Source: Cystobasidiopsis lactophilus (taxonomy: Eukaryota; Basidiomycota; Agaricostilbomycetes; Agaricostilbales; Chionosphaeraceae). From it: a stretch of DNA of 64,000 bases. Shown piece after piece: positions 8,159-52,455 of this stretch (the stretch's first letter is position 1; every line of letters starts with the position of its first letter). The stretch is from assembly GCA_001599975.1 (NCBI GenBank), contig BCIO01000006.1, forward strand, positions 1,111,587 to 1,175,586. Direction: 5' to 3'. Made by a program: the position numbers and the translations under genes. The notes beneath the pieces were generated by a model that searched no databases, was not told where the DNA came from, and saw nothing but the letters and a program-made list of their open reading frames with translations.

Positions 8159-9240
8159 CTATAGAAGTTCGAGGGGCCAGACTGAACTGGCAAACGACAG
8201 CTTTATGCCGCGCGCGCAGCACGCCCGACCCAAAACCGTCGCCAAGCTCCCGTACGCCGCTTCATTCTCTTGAACAAGTCGTAGAATGAGGTGCTCGAGA
8301 GACGGAAGAAAGTATGGGTCGTTCAGACTGCGGGCGAAATGCGACCAGATCTCAATGGAGGTGCGGCGGATCGGCGCCGATACCTGGCTCGAGAGTTGAT
8401 CTCGGTCGGTCCCCTTCTCATCGATCCGCAAGGTCGTATAAAGGTCCCCTAGCTGCAAAGTCTGCAGCAGCTGAAACCTTGCCAACTTAGCAGAAAGCGA
8501 TTCGTCGGAAGAGAGGAGATCGTGACTAATGTCGAGTCTGATGTCCTGCGCCGTGGGTGGGAGACCGTCGAGAGAAAGGCTGCTGTCCAAAGGGATCCAT
8601 CCAATTGTCGAGGCCGCTAGACCTTCCCAAGAGTAGTATGCTCGGAGAATTTCGCGAGCCCTCTGCTTGGTTTCTTCAAAATGGATCCACGTGTGCACCT
8701 GGACGACCAAGAGGTCGCAAGATGGGCGATTGGAAAAATTTTCGAGAAGAGAGGTGAGGCCCGCTAGCGGATGGTGTGGGCCCAATGGATGACCCGACCC
8801 CCGAATGGCAAGAATGTGCAGCTCTTTCGTGCGCGCCATCAGCTCGACACCGATCGCGCTGCGAACATCGTGGGCCACGAGCTGTTTGGTGGAGATGAGA
8901 TCAAGTTTGACGACGTCGAGCTTGGCAAAGGTCGGGATGTCCATCGATCCCCAGCGATTCGTAGGCCACTCGTTGTCACAGCACTGCACGGTGAGGCGCA
9001 AGTTACTGGCCTCCCTTGATCGGTGCTCTTGCAACGCACACCATTGCCCTCGAATCGGCAAGAACACGCCCATGGTGCGGAAGATCAGTTTGAAGGCCAA
9101 AGGGTAGACGCGTTTGGAGAGGAGCAGCACGGCCAGGACATTGGACGCGTATGCCGCGTTCGGAGACGCTGAGGCCCAGTTTTCCACAGACTTGAGCACC
9201 AATTCCAGGACCTCGAGCGGTAAGGTCAGCAGGGTGGGCT
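8159..9240 (-). CDS. F-box/LRR-like protein, paralogue 1
   Basis: Encodes about 360 residues. Coding begins upstream of 9202 with 'LTLPLEVLELVLKSV', an F-box-like opening ('LPxEVLxLI'), and continues uninterrupted to the stop at 8159. The first exon could not be joined with certainty because an in-frame stop precedes about 9240; an ATG near 9298 (ATGTCCAAG followed by GT) is the likely first exon. The body has leucine-rich, irregularly spaced segments such as 'FQLLQTLQLGDLYTTLRID' and 'FLPSLEHLILRLV', ending with 'CCARGIKL'. It is clearly homologous to the protein at 29436-30506 over its whole length (shared 'VFRTMG', 'EIW', 'PSLEHL', 'ARGI'). By analogy it may be a substrate receptor of an SCF ubiquitin ligase; that is inference, since the F-box is weak. 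Confidence 0.7.
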
Positions 9241-9676
9241 GGGGCGCTCAAGGCCATCAGACTTCCTTTCTGGGCGGCTATTGCAGGCAGCACACCTTGG
9301 ACATCTTCGGCTTGCTCTCTAGCGTGCACACCGAAGGCGTGTGAGAACAGCTAAGTGATACGGACGAAAAGCGGGCAGCTGAGGCACTGCGGTGCGCCGG
9401 AGAACTTCAAGAAAGCTGCTCTTGAATTGAGCTCGAGTTTCTGGGCAGCTACGACAAGGATTGAAACTGACTACAGTAAGAGCAAAAGCGAACACAGAGG
9501 CTCTGATTCCACACCGGGTCCGGATCCACAGTTTGGCGGAAGCGGAGTGAGAAGCGATTCTGTTGCTTGGCGCCCAAGTGGCAAGAATGTGGAACTTGCA
9601 ATGAAAAGCAGAGAATGACTACAAAATGGTATGGGATGAAGGTATGTTGATTTGTACGGGAGTGAGTGAGTGAAGG
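9241..9676. other. Intergenic stretch, no supported gene
   Basis: About 435 bp holding the probable first exon and promoter of the minus-strand F-box/LRR-like gene and the 3' flank of the next minus-strand gene. An 87-residue plus-strand frame (9355-9618) shows no recognisable features. Confidence 0.4.
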
Positions 9677-15696: not shown

Positions 15697-18416
15697 TACG
15701 ACGCAAGGGTCGCAATACGCTTGTCCAACATTCGGGCGATGGAAGCAAGCTGCCTCTGGCGTACGCCAACTGGAGAGGCCAAGCTCAGCCTTGGCTGGGC
15801 GTTCCCCCCAGGAAAGAGGAGCAGCCCACCTTCTCCAGCCGGACCAGTCTTCTCGAAGTCGTTCAGCAGCTCGGAGTAGATGGCACGCTTGGCCTGATAG
15901 GACGCCACGAGAGGGTTCACCACAGCCGCTCTCGCCTTTGAAGACCTTGAAGCGGGAGGTGTAGGAGGTTCCGATCCATGGGACGGCGAAGGCGCGGCTT
16001 GCGCTGTAGAGCCAAAGTCAACCCAGCTCAAAGACAGCAACAACGTATTCACCCTGGTCGTCGTCGGGGCTGCCGCCCAATGAGAGCTTGCCGAAGAAGG
16101 AAGAGAGCCTCTCTTTCGTCTTCTTCTTTGGCTGGCTGTCCGACCAATCGGGAAACGCGTTTGGCATTCTGAAGGCGATGCCACGAGCGCTGCGCTTTGG
16201 CTGACTCCGCACCCTCCTCCCGTCGTCTTCGAGGGCTGGAGGCCACTCTTCTTCGGCTGCTGGAGGCGACGAGGGCACTGGCGCACCACGGGATGCTGGA
16301 GCTGACGGCGATGGTGACCGAACATCCTCCAGAGGTTCTGTGGCTGCAAAGGAAGGGTAAGCGGAAGTAGGCGGCGCGCTGGAGTAGCTTGGCGACGGCG
16401 GGCTGGCCGCTTGCATTCGGCGTGCAGCCGGCGCAGGCGGAGCCGCTCGAGGCAATGGTGGAGCTGTTGCCATCTGCTGAGAGGTACTCGGACGGTCGTG
16501 AGCCGGCGCGCGAGATCGATAGCGGGCTTCGCTCCAGCCTTCATCCGCAGCTGGAGAGGATGAGGGCATAAGGCCTCCACGAGAACTCGATGCTTGTTGA
16601 ATTGAAGCGTCATAGTCTGTTGGGGGCGCCACTGCGGCGAAAGAAGAGAGGTAAGCAGAGGCAGGCGAGGCGCTGGCATAGCTGGTCGTCGACGGCATGG
16701 CCGAACGCATCGGGTGCGCGGCTTGATCTTGCCGTGACGGAGGTGATCCAGGCATTGGTCGGGTGCCGCGCATTGAGCGAACGGGCCCGAGAAAAGCAGG
16801 CGGCTCGGAGGTTGGCGGAGGAGGTGGATATGCCTGTGCAGAAAAGGTTGGCGGACCCCTTGCGTCTTCGAAGAGAGGAGGTGCTGCTTGAGGATAAGCG
16901 GACGAAGATGATGATACAGGTGAGATGGGGGGCGCAGCGGCAAAGGAGAAGGCAGCCGGGCCGCCGGTCGACGCATCCGCCATCCAGGTCGGCGCCGCGT
17001 AAGATCCATAATCTGCTGCTGTTGTCAACTCTGGACCGGATTGAAGCGCGTTGGCGGCACCGAAAGAAGGTTGCGAAAAGGCGGAAGCCGAAGCGCCGTA
17101 GGAAGGCGCAATTGATTGGGCGAATGCTCCGTCTGTCTGCTCCGCCTGAGATCCAGGGAAGAATTCGGAGCTGTAGATATTGAGCTGCGGCAAGGGCGAC
17201 GACACGCTGCCGAACATCGCCGGTGGAGATGGAGCGGCGGGAGCCAGGCTTGGGGGCGGTGCTCCTCTCGTTCGTTCCAAAAAGGGAGGAGGAGAGGACG
17301 GTTGCATGAGGAAAGGCGGCGATTTTGAAGATGATGGCGTTGAAGAAGAGCTAGGGTAGGAGAAGGCGTAAGGCTGCGCTGGGGCCTGAGGCGCGCTGTC
17401 AGCATCTGCCTGCGGCTGCTCCACGGCATCCTCGTCGAAGAGGAACATGTTCTGCCACTCGTCGTAAGCTGCGACGGCCTTCCAGTCAGAGTCCGTAAAG
17501 GCCCAAGGAGGCGTCTGCTCTGATGGGGGAGGAGGAGCTTGTTGTGGCAGCGCATCGAAGAGATCGGGCTGCGGCGGGAGGTTTTGGATCCACTGGTCCA
17601 GGAAGCTCGTGTCGTTGAGGTCGAACAAGGGCTGTTGGTTGTTCAGATTCGGGCTGGTGTACGTCAGCGAGGGCGTGGATGGGCTCTGCTCGTTGGACGA
17701 CGAGTTGCTGAACGGGTTGGGAGGTAAGGAGGCGATGGAGGAAAGCCAGTCCGAGGGCACGACCACTCCGTTCGAGTTTTGATATAAGTCGAAAGGGGGC
17801 ACGGGGTACTGCTCCAAAGGGTAGGAGGGCTGAGGGGAGAGCTCGGAGCTGGGGCCGAAGTTGGAGCTCGGGCCACTCAACGGCTGGTCGAACGTCCGCA
17901 CCTGCGAAAGCGCAGATTTGAGCTCGCTCATAGTAGCAGATGATACTAGAGATGCATACCCGCTTGTCGTCAGGCTGAGGAGGGTCGCTTGAGGTGAACG
18001 AGGGTCGCTTCCTCTTCACGGCCTTCGTCGCCGCAGCGTCAACCACGGTCACGAAAACCGCCAGGACTTGCTCCACCGTTTTCTGTTTGAGATTGAATCA
18101 ACATTGTGGCGTCCTGTGGCCTTGAAAGTGGGAAGGGGCGGTCACTTACGTCGGTTTCGCCGGCGGCTTGGAGGGTGGCCGTTATCTCTTCGACAGTGCG
18201 CCCTGCGGCCGCCATGTCCCTGGCAAAGTGCTCGCGCAACGACTGGGCCCTGCCGACCTTCTCAGCCTTGCAGTAGCCGCAGGCGTACAGCCGGTCTTGG
18301 GCGTGCAGCTCCTCGAGGGGGACACCTTGGTCGAGCTTTTTCTGGCCACTCTTGGACACCTTGCTCGTAATGTACCAGAATGGCGGGTTTCTGAAGCCTG
18401 CCAAAGGAGTTGGCAT
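15696..18416 (-). CDS. Long disordered protein with N-terminal Cys/His finger
   Basis: About 770 residues. The start at 18416 gives 'MPTPLAGFRNPPFWYITSKV'. Near residue 45 is 'YACGYC' followed about 14 residues later by 'LREHFARD', a C-x2-C...H arrangement reminiscent of a BED or degenerate C2H2 finger. After introns near 18080-18150 and 17927-17958 come a basic 'KRKRPSFTSS' (possible nuclear signal) and about 600 residues of Pro/Ser/Ala/Gln-rich sequence with many SPP, PPPP and acidic patches. The final exon (joined by a GTGAAT...CTACAG intron near 15996-16048) encodes the more ordered 'LVASYQAKRAIYSELLNDFE' and ends at 15696. The composition suits a transcriptional co-regulator. Start codons of this gene and COQ8 are 92 bp apart and divergent. 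No precise family recognised. Confidence 0.7.
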
Positions 18417-20258: not shown

Positions 20259-21203
20259 CTACTTCAGAGACAGCTTGGCCAACTTGGCCGCATCCCTCCT
20301 CTCGCCCTGAGCCTTGACACACGCTGCCATGTCGTCGCCCAGCTTGGTGCCCAAAGCTTGGAAGCCATCGATCACTCCCTGGTGGTCGCCGCCCTTCATT
20401 TCCTGGGACATCTTGAAGCGCCCTTCCAGCCTGTCCACCTTGATCTCGATGCCTATAATGGCTTTGCGGAGAATCGCGATGTCTACCAGAGGCTCATCAG
20501 CAAAGGCAAGCCCTTGAGAATAAAGGAGAATGCGATACAATTGGGAGGCGCATCAGAGACATGCCACGGCTCAGGAGCGCCGTCCTTGCCAGTGTACCCT
20601 CGGATGTTGATCTCAGCAGAAGTAGATAGTTCTGCGTATGTCGAAAGCATAAGAAAAGGCCAGAACGAGAGGAAGCTGTGCGGCCTGCCTTCTGTCTGTT
20701 TGGCGAGGAAAGCGCCAGTCCGCTCGGGAGTCGCAGAAGAGTAGATGTAGGTGGCCTTGCCGTATGCCTGAACAGCCTGGTAGTCCCAAGTGCCGACGAC
20801 TTTGCCGGAGTCCGGCTTTGTCTGCTTGTAAAACTTCGGCGTCACGTAGGAATGGGCGGGCCCGTTGAAGAGGACGGTGACGTCCATCACTGGCGCTTCG
20901 GGGTCTGCAGCTACATGTTGGATCAACGCTTTTGCTTGAGGGTTGGCCAGGGCCATGTGGCCACGGAGGGTGCCGGCCTTCATTCTCTCCGTCAGTGCTG
21001 TCCTCCTGGCCTATCCAATGTCATTGGCTCACCCCATCTTCTGCGCTCTTTGGCTCGTCAAAGATCCATGGGACGTGGGACAACTGGATGAGGGGAAAGT
21101 TGGAGGAGGGCAGAGCGGTGGCGATAATGCCGAGCGGGTTGTCCTTGATGAACTTGTGCAACGTGTCCGGGTCCTTCTCGACGTGGTCTAGGTTCAAATA
21201 CAT
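20259..21203 (-). CDS. PaiB-like FMN-binding split-barrel protein
   Basis: Belongs to the PaiB / 'negative transcriptional regulator' FMN-binding family, widespread in bacteria and scattered in fungi. The start at 21203 gives 'MYLNLDHVEKDPDTLHKFIK' and 'NPLGIIATALPSSNFPLIQLS', the first strands of the split barrel. After an intron: 'RGHMALANPQAKALI', 'VTVLFNGPAHSYVTPKFY', 'VGTWDYQAVQAYGKA', all diagnostic for PaiB. The last exon has 'KAIIGIEIKVDRLEGRFKMS' and ends at 20259. About 235 residues, a normal length. Introns near 20983-21040, 20600-20715 and 20500-20560. It faces COQ8 tail to tail. The fungal role is unknown; FMN-dependent chemistry or stress control are possibilities rather than evidence-based claims. 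Confidence 0.88.
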
Positions 21204-22102
21204 GCTGAGGCTGGTTGTAAATGGCCAAAGGAGAACTACTGAGTCACGACAAATGCTGGCGCTCTGATTCGCCCTCGAGTCGCTTGCTCGAGATCCGATT
21301 TTAGAGAACTGGCGGCAAGCGCGGTTGAGGCGACTTGGCGATCAGCGACGAAGAGCAGTCTAAACAGACCCAAAGCGCAGAGGCAAGAAGACGTCCAAAC
21401 AGAAGCCGGCGAACGAGGGCTGAGGGAGCCTCTGCCTCGGTGAAACTTTCTGCCGTCGCCACCGCATTTCTCAATGAGCCTTCTTTTACCCTTCGTCCAC
21501 TTTCCCTCTGGTTGCTGCGCTCCATGATAGCGAGAGATCACTGGAAAAGTTTTACAGCCATGGGCGCCCCTCCTCCTTGGAAGAATTTACTGGCTGCCAG
21601 GCGTCGAGCGCGAAGACTTTCTCGGCGCGGCTTCGATTTTCGTCTGTTCTGCAGAAGAGTGGACCTGCACTCCATTCTGGTTCTGTCATGGGCGCTCCTC
21701 CACTGCAAGAGGACGGATGGCGCCGCCTCCGAATGCCCTTCCGTTTTCCCATCCTTGTCTCGGCGTCGATGAAGCTTGGGCTAGGAGCGGTCTATGAATG
21801 AAGAAAGTGTTAATTCTGATCTCTGCTGTCAACATGCCGAGCAATCAAGTCTCAGCATGCCCATGGCTCCTTTGCGAAAACCCAAGATCTCACTTTCGAC
21901 AGAGGTACGGATTCTTCTTCTGTGCCGGCGCGAGCACAACATGAAGGTGGCAGTGAATGTGTCCGAGTCGATGCACCGCCTGAACTGCACTATAAAAGGC
22001 GGGCGGTCTGGGTTGCTCTGCCTTACCACGCTGCCGTGCCACGTCTCACTACTGCCTCTCCAACCCGTAGGGGTCATACAGCACACCTTTCCAAAGTGAA
22101 CG
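21204..22102. other. Intergenic region with a TATA box
   Basis: About 900 bp. Two related short segments occur near 21558 and 21688 on the plus strand (both beginning CATGGGCGC and each followed by CTCC), but no gene is supported. The right end carries the promoter of the three-module gene. Confidence 0.45.
21991..21997 (+). promoter_or_regulatory. TATA box of the three-module gene
   Basis: TATAAAA, 112 bp upstream of the ATG at 22103, a plausible core-promoter position leaving roughly 80 nt of 5' leader. Clear TATA boxes are uncommon upstream of the other genes here. Confidence 0.5.
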
Positions 22103-23102
22103 ATGAATCACAACGGTCTCATTGACGGCTGCCAATGGCTCATCAATGAACAATACCACTGCTACTTTGCGCGCGTCAATACCGGCATCATATGCATCGA
22201 GCCTAGCGACTTTCCCTTTGGGACTGGGAACCATATTACCGAGCAGGAAATGGTGGCTCGGCGGAAGTTAGGAATTTGCTATTTCCTAGCAAGAGTTGCA
22301 AACTAAGTCTGGCGTGGCAGCCATCAACGCACACAGTACCCAGCTACTGCGACAGTCGAGAGGCTTACATGGGCGTGGGATCCTGAACATCGGTGCTACC
22401 GTGCCACTGCGAGTCTGTGTTGCGAGCCTGATCACCTTCACAACGCCGGAAACAATTGGATGCTGGAAGCTAGCATGATCGCAAGGCGACAGTGAGGATC
22501 ACTTCTGTTTACTATTTCACATTACTGAATGAAAGATTCAGGTATGAGCGTCAACAGTATGGATTGTTTCCGTTGTCTCAGTCATTCGCTGAAGAATATT
22601 GGAGCAGGCTGGCCACACACCGTCCATCCAGGAAAATTGGCCAATCAACTTGGCGGTGGAACCGCGAGTTGATGTGCTACACCATTGACTCAAATCAAGG
22701 AGTTATATGTAGCGAGGCCAGTGACATTCTCTCTGACGTCGACCATCGCTGGGTGTCCCTCGCCGACATGCAAACGAAGCGAAGGTAAGAGACTCGATCC
22801 TCCCCCACTTGCGCAAGCACTAAAGATGCACAGGCTTGAAGCTGGGATCCCAGGCCCAGCTTACAAGCTGCCGTCTGCAGAGGCTTCAGACGAGGAGGAG
22901 ACCGAGGAAGCCTCCGGCCACAATTCACCCGTCATGTCACCAGCCGGCCCGTCTGCTTGGAGAAGGCCACACAACCGTGCTTCTGACTTGTCCGAGTACT
23001 CTTTTCTCAAAGCTGGCAAGAAGTGCTCATTGAAAAAACAGTGAGATCTGCCATCACTGTCATGATTCTCCCGAGGGCTGCAAAAAGTGCTTCAAGTTCT
23101 GA
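22103..23102 (+). CDS. Novel five-exon protein: three exon-encoded W/CY/C modules plus CxxC-CxxC tail
   Basis: Proposed exons 22103-22266, 22321-22491, 22542-22784, 22834-22995 and 23042-23102 (introns 54, 50, 49 and 46 nt) give 266 residues; all joins are phase 2. Exons 1-3 each end in a homologous module: 'WLINEQYHCYFARVNTGIIC', 'WAWDPEHRCYRATASLCC' and 'WRWNRELMCYTIDSNQGVIC', each followed by E and about 22-24 residues to a basic end (ARR, ARR, TKR) just before the donor. Shared positions: W, N/D two to three residues on, C-Y, then C-x-E. Exon 4 is acidic and Pro/Ser-rich. Exon 5 encodes 'CHHCHDSPEGCKKC', a possible zinc knuckle. If the last intron is retained, the protein ends at 23044 instead. 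No signal peptide is visible. I do not recognise the module. Base composition looks lower in G+C than neighbouring genes. Confidence 0.7.
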
Positions 23103-23758: not shown

Positions 23759-24917
23759 ATGCTCCTCAACTTTGCATTTGGCGTTGCCTTGGCGCTTTCC
23801 TCGAGCTTTGTTGTTGCCTCGCCGTGCGTTCGTAGTTTGTTGCGGGTCTGGCGCGTCTGAAGCTGCGGAGCTTCATAGAGAGCCTATTGATGTTGCAGAA
23901 GGACAATGGTGAGTGGTGGAAGGGAATTCGAGAGAGGAATTGAGCCGAGCCACCACCAGGCTTCAAATTCGCGACGACATGGAATCCAATCTAGAAAGGC
24001 GCGCCAGCGCAAGCACAGTGTCATTACTGTAAGACTTTTCCACAGGACGCTACCACCACATGACTCAGATAGCTCAATAGCGAAAACAACTTGATCAAGC
24101 AAGTCACGCGCATGCAAGGCCAAATCACCCAGGGCATCAGCCGCCTTCAGACGATTGAGGCGAAGATGGCACCAATCGGCAGCAAGGCATGGGCTTTGTA
24201 CTCCAACCACGGAAAGCCGTCAGCCAGCGAGCAGCAAGGTGGGCTTGCTGCGCCTCAGGCAGACGATCACTGAGCACGAGGGCTCGAGAGCAGCCGTGGC
24301 CGACTTGAACGCAGTGGCTAGTCGCTTTGCTACGGATGCCACAGCACTTTTCAAAAGGATGGAGGCCAACATCGCTACCCAATTCAAGCAGATGGCCGTC
24401 CTGGAGTCCTCGCTCTCAGGCTCCTTTAAGCCGTGAGTCACTTTGCCCCACTTCTGGAGCATCATTAAACTGTCAAAACTTCCTGTAGTACACGGACAAT
24501 TCTTAGCAAGCGAAGCGAACCCACACCGGTATTGGTCAAGCGCAAGAAGCTGTCCTCCTCCAACTTGTTAATGGCGTAGGCTTTCATCGCTTAAGATCAA
24601 CTTACCTGCCATTCATACGTGGCCGCAGAGAGTACGACGTCTACAAGGTCTGCACTTCCGTCACCGCTGAGATCAACAAATTGATCGTCATCCTCAACAA
24701 CGTCAACGCCAATTTGGGCAAGATCGTGGCTCAAGTCACCACTTTGCAGGCCAATAACAAAGCACCTTTGGCCACTCAGCAGCAAATCCTGGCCGACCTA
24801 ACCCAGTTGACCAAGTCGCTCAACACCCGGGCGACGGCGGCCATGGGCACTTTCGCCTTTCACGTCGGCCAAGCCACCCAGAATCTTGCCGCATGGCACA
24901 TTCTCTTGGGCATCTGA
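23759..24917 (+). CDS. Predicted secreted helical protein
   Basis: Start at 23759 gives a classic signal peptide 'MLLNFAFGVALALSSSFVVA' with cleavage likely after 'VVA' or 'ASP'. Phase-consistent short introns then join 'EPIDVAEGQWLQIRDDMES', 'LIKQVTRMQGQITQGISRLQ', 'AVASRFATDATALFKRMEAN' and a last exon 'VTAEINKLIVILNNVNANLG', 'VTTLQANNKAPLATQQQILA' to the stop at 24917. The mature protein is almost wholly amphipathic helix with Gln/Asn/Thr/Ala-rich heptads and few cysteines. The helical, Ala/Thr-rich secreted design recalls hydrophobic-surface-binding (HsbA-like) proteins, but no motif proves it. The exon between about 24488 and 24640 is the least certain. Confidence 0.65.
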
Positions 24918-29435: not shown

Positions 29436-30506
29436 CTAGCATTCGAGACTGATCCCGCGCGCGTCGCACTCCCGGCGCAAAATGGCCACGATTCCATTTT
29501 TCCAGAGTGAAGTCTCCGATGCCGGGTCATCCGACGAGGAGGGTAAGGTGATGGACAAGTGGGCGAGAGAAGGGAAAGACGAGTGGGACAAGGCCGCCGC
29601 CACCGCGAGCCAAATTTCGACCGGGAAGCCAGCCGCGGTCCGTGAGATCTGGAGGTGGTCGCCTCTTTCTGACAAGGGCGTGGTGAGAGTGAGATCCACG
29701 AAGGATAGAGCTTTGAGCTGCTTGAAGGCCACCAGTTGGACCGCCAAATCCTCCATTTCTAGCACCGTCGACTCGCTAAGATGGACTCTGAGAGTGCTTG
29801 CTGCGGTAGGGATGTGGCAGAGAGAGCGTCTGGTGCAGGGCTGATTTTTCGCTCCGCACGCTTGGTCCCAGGTATAGGTAGCCTCGACGACTTGGCGTAG
29901 CTCCACCGTTGAATCCCTCAAAACATATGAGGACACTCGAAAATGGAGCTGTGGTTTCTTCGAAAAGAGGGGCATCCAATGGGCAACCTCTGAGAAGATG
30001 TGCTGGTGCGAGGTGGGATAATCGGTGGCGTATGCCGTGACGCTGCGGATTCGGTCCAGCAGAAAGGGCGGAAAGACGTCGGAAACGCTTCGTTTGGTGA
30101 TTGGGCCGCTGTCACTGTACAGGCGGACATCGACGGCCCGCAGATCGGGGAAAGTTTCTATTGTCGGTAGCAAGTTGCCCCAGACCGTCGCATTCCAGCC
30201 AGTTAGCAGCACTTCGACCTTCAAGACTTTCGCTTCGGCAGCTCGTCGCCTGTCCGAGGGCTTCCTGTATTGCCCAAACGCCAAAACGAGGCCCATGGTG
30301 CGGAACACCGTGCTGTGCGCGATGGGGTAGGAGATCCGGGATATCAAGAGGACCGCTCGCAGCTGATCTTCATACGCAGAAGTGACATCGGCGGTGCTCC
30401 AGTCGAACACAGAGTCGATGATGAGCTCCAGAACCTCGGGAGGAAGCGTCAAGAATGTCGGCTGCCATCTCGCGCTCAGCCCTCGACCTGCGCATCCTGA
30501 TTGCAC
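29436..30506 (-). CDS. F-box/LRR-like protein, paralogue 2
   Basis: About 355 residues in one uninterrupted frame to 29436. Near the start is 'FLTLPPEVLELIIDSVFDW', a convincing F-box opening, followed by 'LRAVLLISRISYPIAHSTVF' and 'RTMGLVLAFGQY'. Leucine-rich stretches include 'FKQLKALSFVDLTLTTPLS' and 'FPSLAHLSITLPS'; the end is 'RRECDARGISLEC'. It aligns throughout with the protein at 8159-9240, so the two are paralogues about 20 kb apart. An alternative first exon ATGTCTAAG/GT lies at about 30522 and mirrors the same arrangement in paralogue 1. Likely role as substrate adaptor in SCF ubiquitination is inference from the F-box. Confidence 0.72.
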   Translation of the reverse strand: MQSGCAGRGLSARWQPTFLTLPPEVLELIIDSVFDWSTADVTSAYEDQLRAVLLISRISYPIAHSTVFRTMGLVLAFGQYRKPSDRRRAAEAKVLKVEVLLTGWNATVWGNLLPTIETFPDLRAVDVRLYSDSGPITKRSVSDVFPPFLLDRIRSVTAYATDYPTSHQHIFSEVAHWMPLFSKKPQLHFRVSSYVLRDSTVELRQVVEATYTWDQACGAKNQPCTRRSLCHIPTAASTLRVHLSESTVLEMEDLAVQLVAFKQLKALSFVDLTLTTPLSERGDHLQISRTAAGFPVEIWLAVAAALSHSSFPSLAHLSITLPSSSDDPASETSLWKNGIVAILRRECDARGISLEC

Positions 30507-42151: not shown

Positions 42152-43437
42152 TCAATACAGCATTCTAGGTCGGGGCGCGTTCGGGGCGTTTCCGAACCAG
42201 CGACCTGAGCCGCCACAATTCGGGCACGTCGTCTCGTCCCTGTGAGTTACCTGTGAGATGGCAGATCTTAAGGTCTAAAAGAGAGGGGACTCACAGGAAA
42301 AGGAAGCCGGAAGCGATCAGGCCGTAGCCATTACATGTCAAGCAGAGCTCGCCGCCTAGATTTTGACGGTTAACAAGGCAACTGCGACAGATAGAGCGCG
42401 GACGAACCTAGTCGAGGATCACCAGGGCGAACGACCATTGGCCGCTGTGGCCCTTGTGGCGCGAGCGACTGCCTCGGCGGCGTGCCGTAACCGTACACCT
42501 CTTGCTGCGGGGGCACGCGGTAGTGGGCGGGCATGGTGAAAGTCTGGCCGGTGGCGCCCGTTATCGGCTTTGGCATCGGCAAGGGCCTTTGGGAGTTGGG
42601 CGGGGTCGAGTGGCCGTTCTCAGCAGAGGCGGACGTCAAGGCGACCTTCAAAGCGCCGGCGAAAGGCTTCCCAAACTTGTCCCAGCACTTGCGGCAGGGC
42701 GAGGACGGGTCGAAGGCCTTGTAGCCTGTGTCCTTGCATTTCGAGCACACTGAATGGCCGGTGGCCGGGAAGACGAGGATCTTGCCCTGGCGGAGCAAGA
42801 CCTGGCCCGGCTTGGCCGACGTTGTCGGCTCCCATTTTGGTGCTGGCGGAGCGCTCGGTGGAGGTGCAAAACCGCTGTTCCGTTGCGGTAGCGGTGGAGG
42901 GACGCTGCTGGGAGGCGGGGCGGCGCCAGGGAAGGAGTTGGAGACGAAAGGATTGGGCCCGGGGGCAGAGGTGGAAGGCCAGGAATTCGGGTAGGGCTGG
43001 TACTCCCATTCGAGGGCAGGCCGTGTCTGAGATGGAAGGGGGTCCAAAGGTTGGAAGGGCGAGTAAACCCCGGTATTGGTAGATGGGTTGCCCGGCTGAT
43101 GAGAAGTCGGCGGAAGGTGCTGGCGGACTGGAGGCGGCTGGATGACAGCCTCTTGGAATGGCCTCGTAGGTCCATACTCGACGGGCTGCTCGTCCAATCC
43201 GGGCGCGGCTTCATCTGGGGGAAAGGGGAAGCCGCCGCCAGGGGCGTCATTTGAGCTTTCACTTGGCATTTGTCGACTCGCAAAGCGCTACTCACAAGGC
43301 GGTGGCGGCTCCTCGTTCAGGTCCTCCTCCGTGAGTCTTTGGGCATCAGAACCAGAGGCAGAAGGGGCAGAAGCCGCGGACGAATTCGAAGCATTGCCAT
43401 TGTTTCTCGGAGGGAGAGCTGGCGGAGTTTGGGGCAT
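42152..43437 (-). CDS. HUA1: HUA1-like proline-rich zinc-ribbon protein
   Basis: Cytoplasmic adaptor linked in yeast to endocytosis and actin patches. The start at 43437 gives 'MPQTPPALPPRNNGNASNSS', then a long Pro/Ser-rich linker with PxxP-type motifs. The hallmark HUA1 module follows: 'GQVLLRQGKILVFPATGHSV' with 'CSKCKDTGYK' and 'PCRKCWDKFGKPF', then after an intron 'GGELCLTCNGYGLIASGFLF' and 'TTCPNCGGSGRWFGNAP', giving four CxxC pairs like a DnaJ-type zinc ribbon. Stop at 42152. Introns near 42242-42292, 42372-42410 and 43260-43305; the first join, at the 'EEPPPP' end, could not be phased exactly. About 390 residues, longer than yeast Hua1 through its linker. CxxC arrangement makes the assignment firm. 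Confidence 0.87.
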
Positions 43438-49609: not shown

Positions 49610-52455
49610 ATGAGCGCCGAGTTCCTGAGCGACATTGGGGCGTCGAGCCTGAGCCCTGAAGCACGGTACGAGCCAGTGATTGGGCGGCACCTGGCGCGCA
49701 TCCAAGAGGAGATCGCTGGCACCGAGGCGGAGCTGCACGAGCTGGTGTCGAGCAACTTCCCGGCCTTGCGCGAGCAATACTCGACCGCCCTCGCCTTGCA
49801 CCAGTCTTTGTCCCAGCTGTCCAGCTCGGTCAACGCGCTCGAATCCGAGCTCGAAACGGGCGTGCAGCCCGCTTTGCTCCAAGCCGCCCAGCGCTACTCC
49901 GAGTCCAACCTGCAATTCGCCCGCTTGTCCGCGTCCAAGCAAGCCTGGGATGCCTTCAAAGCGTCACAGCAAACGTTGGAAGCCGTCCAGACCTGCTTGA
50001 ACCAAGGCCAGCTCGTCCAAGCCGCAGCTGGTTTGGCCAGTCCCAGGCCAGAGCCGGCCAGCTGGATCAAGGCCACCAATTACTGGCTTCGGCTGGAGCG
50101 GTGGCGCGAAGAGCTGCACGCTTCGGTCAAAGACCAGGTCCAAACGGCGTTGGCCAAGTGCGTCAGCATCGAGCCAGGTCGCTGCTCCATCCTGCCCGCC
50201 TTCAAAGGTGCGCCTTGGATACCCTTCATTCGCGCTCCTTGAATGGTTGTTCATTCCACAAGCGTCACAGACACACCGTTGATGGAGCTCCTCGAGGCCA
50301 ACCGCTTCTTCGAGGCCAAACGGGACCCTTACGCTGGCCAACTCCTGACCAAGCTCCAGTCCCTGCTGCTCAAACCCTACTGCCAATCTCCCACCGCCCA
50401 CTTCAAAGTCGAAGGCGACGTTCTCGTCCTAGACCAAACTCCACCGAATGGGGACGGCGCCGAACGACTCGGCTCCTTGGCCACATGCATGACCTACCTC
50501 CAAGCCCGCCTTCCCATCCTCTATGAATCTGCCAAGCTACCACTCCTACAGCTCCTCATCAACGACATCCTGCTTCCCGCTTTGCAACCGACCACCTCCA
50601 CCTCTGACTTTCAAACCTTCTTGCACCTCCTCGACCAAGCCAAGCAGCTCGAGGCCGCCTGGCTCGCGCCCACCGCGGCCGACAAGCCCATCTCCACCTG
50701 GTCCGGCTCTCTGGCCTTGCACTGGATCCGAAAAGTGACGGAGGACTGCTACTCCAAGACGCGCGCCCAAGTCGTCGCCTGCAGCTCGTCCAAAGGGTGG
50801 GACAGCGTGCCGGTGGAGTGGACGCTGAACAGGCTACAAGAGTCGGCCACCTCTCTCTTTGCCCAGCCTTCCACTTTGACCGCCGCGAACGCAAAGGCGA
50901 AACCGGCCAGCAAGCAGGCTTCGCCCGCCAAAGTGGTGAACGATGACGGGTGGGGCTTTGACGAGGAGGCACCGGCGGAGGACGATCCGTGGGGCTTGGA
51001 TAGCTCTCCCGTCAAGCCGAGCGCATCGAGCTCGACCGAGGAGCCAATAGAGGATGCTTGGGGGTTCGACGACCCGCTACCCAAAAGCGCCTCTGCCAAC
51101 GACGACGGCTGGGGCTTCGATGACGACATGGCAGCACCAACAGAAGAGCAGGACGATTTTGGGAATGGCCACGCGACGAATGGCGACGATGACTTTGCGG
51201 CGTGGGACGACGAGCCCGCTGTCAAGCCAAAGGCGAAGCGGAAACTGGGCGCCGTGCCGCTGTCCCAAGTCAAGCAGCAACAGAAACAGCAAGCTACGCC
51301 ACCAAGCAAGACCAAGGCGCTGCCTCCGGCTGCTCCACAACGAGCACCGCCACCACCACCTCCGCCGATTGAGCACTTCAGCATCTCGGTTCACGTCAAT
51401 GGCATCTTACAACTCGCTAAAGAAGCCCTCGGCTCCGCACTGGCAATCAGGGCGCCGGAGTTTGCAGCGCTGGAGCCTCGAGCGGAATTGGCGCCGCGCC
51501 TGCAAAAGACGGCCCTCGGCATCTTCGCCCTCTACCGCGCCACCATGCCCGTCCAGCACTCGCAGCTGATTGAACAGGTGCCGGCCATTGGCATGCAGTT
51601 CTCCAACGACTTGGAGTACCTGGCGTGGAGCCTGGCGGAAATGGCCAAAGCGGATTCGGCCCAGCTGGATTGGGCGGCGCCGCTCCAGGCCGACGTCAAG
51701 GCTCAAATTTTCGCTTTTCAAGTGATGGCGCTGCGAGAGCGGTCGAAGCAGATTGTGAGACCGGCCCTCCTTGATGCCTCGTCGCTGCTTGACATTGCGA
51801 CTGTCTTCCGATCCACAGGAACTCCAACGGACGGCGCTCCAAGAAACACTAGAGAGCCTCCCCTTTTCTCAGCTGGCTTCTCCTCCAGTATTCGCCAATG
51901 CAGAGCGCACGGTGAAGCAAATCGTCCACACTTTAGTCCGCCTTGCCAACGTCTGGAAGCCCATCATGCTGCCTTCCACTTTCTACGCGACTCTGGGCCA
52001 ACTCACGACCGATGTTCTAGAACATGTGATGCGGGAGATCGAGGGCATGGCGGACATTGGCGAGGAGGACTCGAAGAGGTTGACCGCCATTTGCAGAGAC
52101 TTCAACGGGCTGGAGGAGTGCTTCCAAGGGGTGAGTGGAAGCTTTCTCACAATCAACACTGCCTGATTGCGGAGCGGATTCATCTCACAGACCCAAGTTG
52201 GGCTTTTTGTGCCCGTTTGGTTCAAGTTTGCCTACTTGGCGGAGATTCTGGAGGCTTCAATGGTGCGCATGTCATCTATGCACCCTTTAGTTCACAGCTC
52301 AATGATCCAAACAGATCGACATCATGTTCCTGGTGGAGTCAGGATCCTTGGTCGACTTCAAAGCGGAAGAGCTGGTCAGCTTGGTCCGAGCTTTGTTCGC
52401 CGACAGCCCGGCGAGGCAACAGAACATTGGCAAAATCAGGCAGTCTTTAACCTAG
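49610..52455 (+). CDS. Dsl1/ZW10-type tethering subunit with acidic tryptophan lasso
   Basis: ER-side vesicle tether subunit (yeast Dsl1, metazoan ZW10) that captures COPI vesicles. Start at 49610: 'MSAEFLSDIGASSLSPEARY', then a long coil ('LARIQEEIAGTEAELHELVS'). The middle is an acidic linker at about 50940-51210 with repeated tryptophan motifs: 'DDGWGFDEE', 'DDPWGLDSS', 'EDAWGFDDP', 'DDGWGFDDD' and 'FAAWDDE'. This is the hallmark of the Dsl1 lasso that binds coatomer. A Gln/Pro-rich spacer leads to the C-terminal helical fold ('HFSISVHVNGILQLAKEAL', 'FSNDLEYLAWSLAEMAKADS'). Introns near 50206-50266, 51755-51819, 52130-52191 and 52262-52313. The last exon, 'DIMFLVESGSLVDFKAEELV', ends at 52455. 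About 850 residues. The stop is 2 bp from that of the DNA ligase gene. Confidence 0.85.

Follow-up and report, generated by a model that had tools for sequence, protein, structure and literature searches.

Three exon-encoded copies of a probably undescribed module in a predicted gene of the basidiomycete Cystobasidiopsis lactophilus

Does a predicted gene of Cystobasidiopsis lactophilus carry three copies of a domain that the available libraries do not describe, and did these copies arise by duplication of an exon? The gene lies at 22103-23102 on the + strand of a 64,000-nucleotide stretch of DNA (contig BCIO01000006.1 of assembly GCA_001599975.1, positions 1,111,587 to 1,175,586; hereafter the window). 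It was singled out in an initial annotation as built from three exon-encoded copies of a W/CY/C module for which no known domain fitted, and as a candidate for an undescribed protein family. The reading favored here, to which we assign a probability of roughly 0.6, is that the locus is a real fungal coding gene in which a single phase-2 exon was duplicated in tandem and whose product would be an intracellular protein with three domains of about 50 amino acids.

One line of evidence for this reading comes from the comparison of the modules with one another. Exons 1, 2 and 3 encode one module of about 50 amino acids each, following the pattern W-x2-[ND]-x4-CY-x(6/9)-C-x-E...M-x3-R, in which seven columns (W, C, Y, C, E, M and R) are invariant in all three copies. 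The Smith-Waterman scores of the three pairs (65, 59 and 63) exceed the means of shuffled sequences (20.4, 19.7 and 21.5; standard deviation 3.9-4.2) by 10-11 standard deviations, and none of 2000 shuffles reached the observed score in any pair; the module borders were picked after the similarity had been seen, which inflates this significance slightly, but hardly to 10 standard deviations. The repeats described in the initial annotation are thus borne out, and so is their high divergence, as the copies are 25-29% identical to the first row of the alignment and about 70-75% of positions differ. Over 141 aligned codon pairs, identity was counted at 71 second, 60 first and 52 third positions (counts alone, with no significance test). 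This order is the one expected if the copies diverged under protein constraint, and it indicates that such constraint has acted on the modules. Taken at the level of sequence, homology of the three exon-encoded modules is supported.

How the modules are arranged depends on the gene model, in which five predicted exons join into a single open frame of 266 amino acids. All four introns are GT-AG and all four junctions are in phase 2:

21991-21997 (+): TATA box-like TATAAAA, 105 nucleotides 5' of the ATG, read from the sequence only
22103-22266 (+): exon 1, 164 nucleotides; open frame carrying module 1 (22115-22264), GT donor, phase 2
22267-22320 (+): intron 1, 54 nucleotides, phase 2; GTTAGG...CAG
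22321-22491 (+): exon 2, 171 nucleotides, phase 2-2; carries module 2 (22352-22489)
22492-22541 (+): intron 2, 50 nucleotides, phase 2; GTGAGG...CAG
22542-22784 (+): exon 3, 243 nucleotides, phase 2-2; a 30-amino-acid extension plus module 3 (22633-22782)
22785-22833 (+): intron 3, 49 nucleotides, phase 2; GTAAGA...CAG
22834-22995 (+): exon 4, 162 nucleotides, phase 2-2; acidic Ser/Pro-rich tail, without a module
22996-23041 (+): intron 4 (uncertain), 46 nucleotides, phase 2; weak donor GTACTC
23042-23102 (+): exon 5 (uncertain), 61 nucleotides; tail ends CHHCHDSPEGCKKCFKF; without splicing, the frame would stop at 23044

The ATG at 22103 is a plausible start because an in-frame TGA lies just 5' of it (22097-22099) and the TATAAAA element further upstream. 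By eye, introns 1-3 have G as the fifth donor base (+5) and, ahead of the acceptor, a core that reads CTRA. Scanning the window with Rfam and tRNA models gave no match. All the exon and intron coordinates first proposed for the gene hold in this reconstruction. The donors after exons 1-3 had been placed in phase 2 at the same position, and in all three copies the intron indeed follows the module at an identical site, after base 2 of the fifth codon past the conserved Met. Exons 2-4 each have a length divisible by three and are flanked by phase 2 on both sides. It is because of this shared intron position and phase, together with the symmetry of exons 2-4, that we read the three module exons as products of exon duplication, as had been suggested from the start. 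An old exon duplication followed by long divergence in a coding gene is, as far as the sequence tells, a well supported reading and the best one.

With tandem exon duplication (reviewed in PMC9013439) the present gene shares its symmetric one-phase exons and the homologous exon products that lie side by side in one gene. It differs in that a single product is predicted to contain all the copies, each domain being encoded by its own exon, and in that about 70-75% of module positions have diverged. Within the parts available of the literature, which was matched by words and not by sequence, the module was not shown.

What kind of protein would such a gene produce? Structure prediction of a single module, which the initial annotation had proposed as a check, returned four strands and a C-terminal helix at equivalent places for modules 1 and 3. 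The AlphaFold model obtained with module 1 as query reached a predicted local distance difference test score (pLDDT) of 80.4 and a predicted template modeling score (pTM) of 0.59, and that obtained with module 3 a pLDDT of 60.3 (73-78 in the core blocks) and a pTM of 0.44. The predicted fold is a four-stranded beta-meander followed by the helix, and no significant match to it was found in the fold libraries searched. Metal binding is one possible role of the conserved Cys pairs; packing of the core alone is another. One phase-2 exon, tandemly duplicated, would have given rise to the three module exons, and the full product would comprise three domains followed by an acidic, probably disordered tail. 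Splicing of intron 4 brings a CxxC-x6-CxxC motif into frame at the C-terminus, where it would perhaps bind zinc; the six-frame translation of the window (127,996 residues) contains CxxC-x(3-14)-CxxC 7 times, the exon 5 tail included. With intron 4 retained, the product would be 262 amino acids long and have a different C-terminus. Inspection by eye suggests no signal peptide, and a cytosolic or nuclear location is probable, since the N-terminus appears to lack a hydrophobic stretch. Three small binding domains held together could provide multivalent binding to some partner, and the row of modules, the extension, the tail and the possible zinc knuckle suggest a multivalent adaptor in which each module would bind a short ligand. 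Elsewhere in the window, a proline-rich open frame at 42373-43287 (-) contains a zinc-knuckle-like CSKCKDTG...CRKC that is somewhat similar to the Cys tail of the gene.

Several observations weigh against the favored reading. Both structure models derive from one set of three sequences and are not independent of each other. The donor of intron 4 is poor and lacks a G at +5; what speaks for this intron is that, among 30 possible introns listed for the tail, only two give the end ...CHHCHDSPEGCKKCFKF (donor 22995 or 22989, with the acceptor before 23042), and that the window has so few CxxC-x(3-14)-CxxC patterns. With a score of -0.076, the codon usage of exons 1-4 falls between that of coding and that of non-coding DNA. 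Presumed non-coding DNA, represented by 606 overlapping stretches of equal length from the window, has a mean of -0.170, a 90th percentile of -0.085 and a 95th of -0.057, and the 61 overlapping coding stretches of the window have a mean of 0.171 and a minimum of 0.032, the latter being taken from the very genes (9 training ranges) on which the model was trained. As the score falls between the 90th and 95th non-coding percentiles and below all 61 coding stretches, codon usage alone would not call this a gene. The frame in use scores best of the forward frames in three of the four exons, and in exon 2 it is the lowest of the three. These codon figures and the weak donor, along with the lack of any relative in the searches made, are what would be seen if the locus were an old pseudogene or a chance run of open stretches. 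Such an origin is nevertheless very improbable in our view, given the consecutive open exons, the GT-AG introns of near-uniform length, and the three homologous copies with their shared intron site and codon-position pattern. It is also conceivable, if improbable, that exons 2 and 3 serve as alternative cassettes, producing isoforms with one, two or three modules: each of exons 2-4 has a length divisible by three and lies between phase-2 introns, so that skipping any one of them preserves the frame, but plain duplication leaves the same symmetry behind.

If the locus is a coding gene, the next matter is whether its module belongs to a domain already described. Pfam returned no family for the whole 266-amino-acid protein at E <= 10, and for the modules a single irrelevant family matching one of the three copies (E 0.12); among PDB sequences the spliced protein had no relative (best E 0.14). 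The statement that no known domain fits the module is supported in so far as nothing convincing emerged from Pfam, PDB sequences or the fold libraries. A profile of the module does rank kelch proteins first (KLHL17, E 7.2e-5 over the whole chain), and two further features would suit a degenerate kelch repeat, or beta-propeller blade. The last part of copies 2 and 3 is W-x5-M-x3-R, which has the spacing of the kelch W...M...R (copy 1 has H for W and retains M-x3-R alone), and a blade is itself a four-stranded meander. However, the kelch scores are the sum of many weak repeats, no single stretch being better than an independent E-value (i-E) of 6.9, and most matches are limited to the last 12-19 profile positions, around W-x5-M-x3-R. 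Pfam kelch (PF01344, which we take to be the kelch repeat) matches neither the whole protein nor the modules, and fold matches are at noise level. A double glycine belongs to the kelch motif; none of the three modules has GG, most of their first half is dissimilar and its W/CY/CxE pattern is left unexplained by kelch, AlphaFold models the W...M...R part as loop and helix, and three blades are too few to close a usual propeller. Of the alternatives considered, this one seems to us the least probable. A test for the WW domain was prompted by the predicted sheet, which resembles it in having a meander core, a conserved Trp on one strand and a Tyr on the next; the likeness, which comes from the model only, consists of a small sheet with aromatic residues on neighboring strands. 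A diverged three-stranded domain of this type (Trp on strand 1, Tyr on strand 2), binding proline-rich or similar peptides, is very unlikely all the same. There was no PF00397 match in the protein or its modules at E <= 10 (a threshold at which HMMER filters discard most weak matches), this gene is not among the 15 WW matches of the genome, of which 12 pass the cut-off, and profile comparison by hhalign with four WW domains aligned 4 columns with a probability of 0.3%. The hallmarks of WW, also visible in the WW sequences examined, are a second Trp and a Pro, and neither is at an equivalent position in the module, which in turn differs by its Cys residues in CY and CxE and by an extra C-terminal helix. 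A WW-like match, named at the outset among the findings that would undo the proposal, was thus looked for by Pfam, genome scan and hhalign and was not found.

The genome of C. lactophilus itself (22,136,282 bases in 8 contigs) was searched for further modules in six frames without splicing, so that modules split by an intron could escape detection. A consensus query, derived from the very three copies that it then finds, recovered only those copies at E <= 10 (three candidates scored; identities 72, 57 and 46%; E 1.6e-16, 3.5e-14 and 1.2e-7). The pattern W-x2-[ND]-x4-CY occurs at 21 places (33 for the reversed pattern used as control), three of them being the modules and the other 18, judged by eye, being devoid of the rest of the module. 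Likewise, W-x-W-[ND]-x4-C is present at 43 places (18 for its reversed control), of which two are modules and none of the other 41 continues as one by eye. A DNA-level search found only the gene itself, and searches with single modules proved insensitive because they missed the sister modules. In a profile run that covered loci L001-L061 and the window, and not L062-L074, the best non-self match was L019 (E 0.018); it was rejected, as a stop precedes it and C-x-E is absent. Locus L030 (43% over 28 amino acids, E 0.084) sits just past the end of an unrelated open frame, and L006 (27%, E 2.17) is no better; both were attributed to chance. By these unspliced searches the module appears in this gene only within its own genome. 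Of the suggested "undescribed protein family", the first half holds across the libraries searched, and the second is not supported by these searches, in which no second gene of the genome was found to carry the module.

Beyond this genome, the spliced protein gave 103 candidates in a large protein collection, none at E <= 10, and the alignment of the three modules gave no candidate. This absence is hardly informative because a control, the ZW10-like open reading frame at 50243-51781, about 27 kb from the gene (ZW10_C, E 3.3e-4, below the family cut-off), yielded just two weak matches (25% and 24% identity) among 7995 candidates scored; ZW10 is not strongly conserved, and the control is a rough one. 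The collection seems to be without a close relative of this fungus. Pattern stretches were found in a viral (27) and a prokaryotic collection (2), none of which was confirmed as a relative. The control result favors the possibility that the module is not new, and that its family already exists in fungal proteomes as a "hypothetical protein", unheld or unnamed in the libraries searched; the empty Pfam result for the whole protein and the one irrelevant match of the modules argue against it, and we place this possibility a little short of an even chance. The domain has probably not been described before, and its occurrence is perhaps confined to this lineage. A fuller scenario, which we regard as tentative and rather doubtful, is that a new domain of about 50 residues (four strands plus a helix) was born within a single fungal lineage, that duplication of its exon then tripled it, and that the result is an intracellular protein which binds in a multivalent fashion and ends in a zinc-binding tail; the family would still be near its origin, its only gene in the genome being this one. 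Were the domain both new and lineage-restricted, the locus would illustrate, in compact form, the birth of a domain and the subsequent duplication of its exon. One domain per exon with a shared intron site would, if true, let relatives reveal the order of duplication, and if relatives exist, the three copies would seed the alignment of a new domain family. Orphan genes are a common class in fungi, and as long as it lacks a partner or a phenotype, this gene stays among them.

Nothing in the neighboring genes points to a shared pathway. Immediately upstream, and divergent, lies an FMN_bind_2 (PF04299) gene that consists of two pieces or more (20486-21338, -). Downstream, 23760-24914 (+) appears to encode a probable secreted protein with a hydrophobic N-terminus, reminiscent of HsbA-like fungal proteins; Pfam found no match at E <= 0.01 in three of its open stretches. 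Two further frames, at 8162-9247 (-) and 29439-30506 (-), 20 kb apart, encode paralogous proteins with 30% identity over 358 aligned columns and no Pfam match at E <= 0.01; both begin with LTLPxEVLEL, an N-terminus that we take to be F-box-like. An uninterrupted frame of 665 amino acids, rich in Ser, Pro and Ala, occupies 16021-18015 (-), and the gene content also includes a fungal Zn2Cys6 domain.
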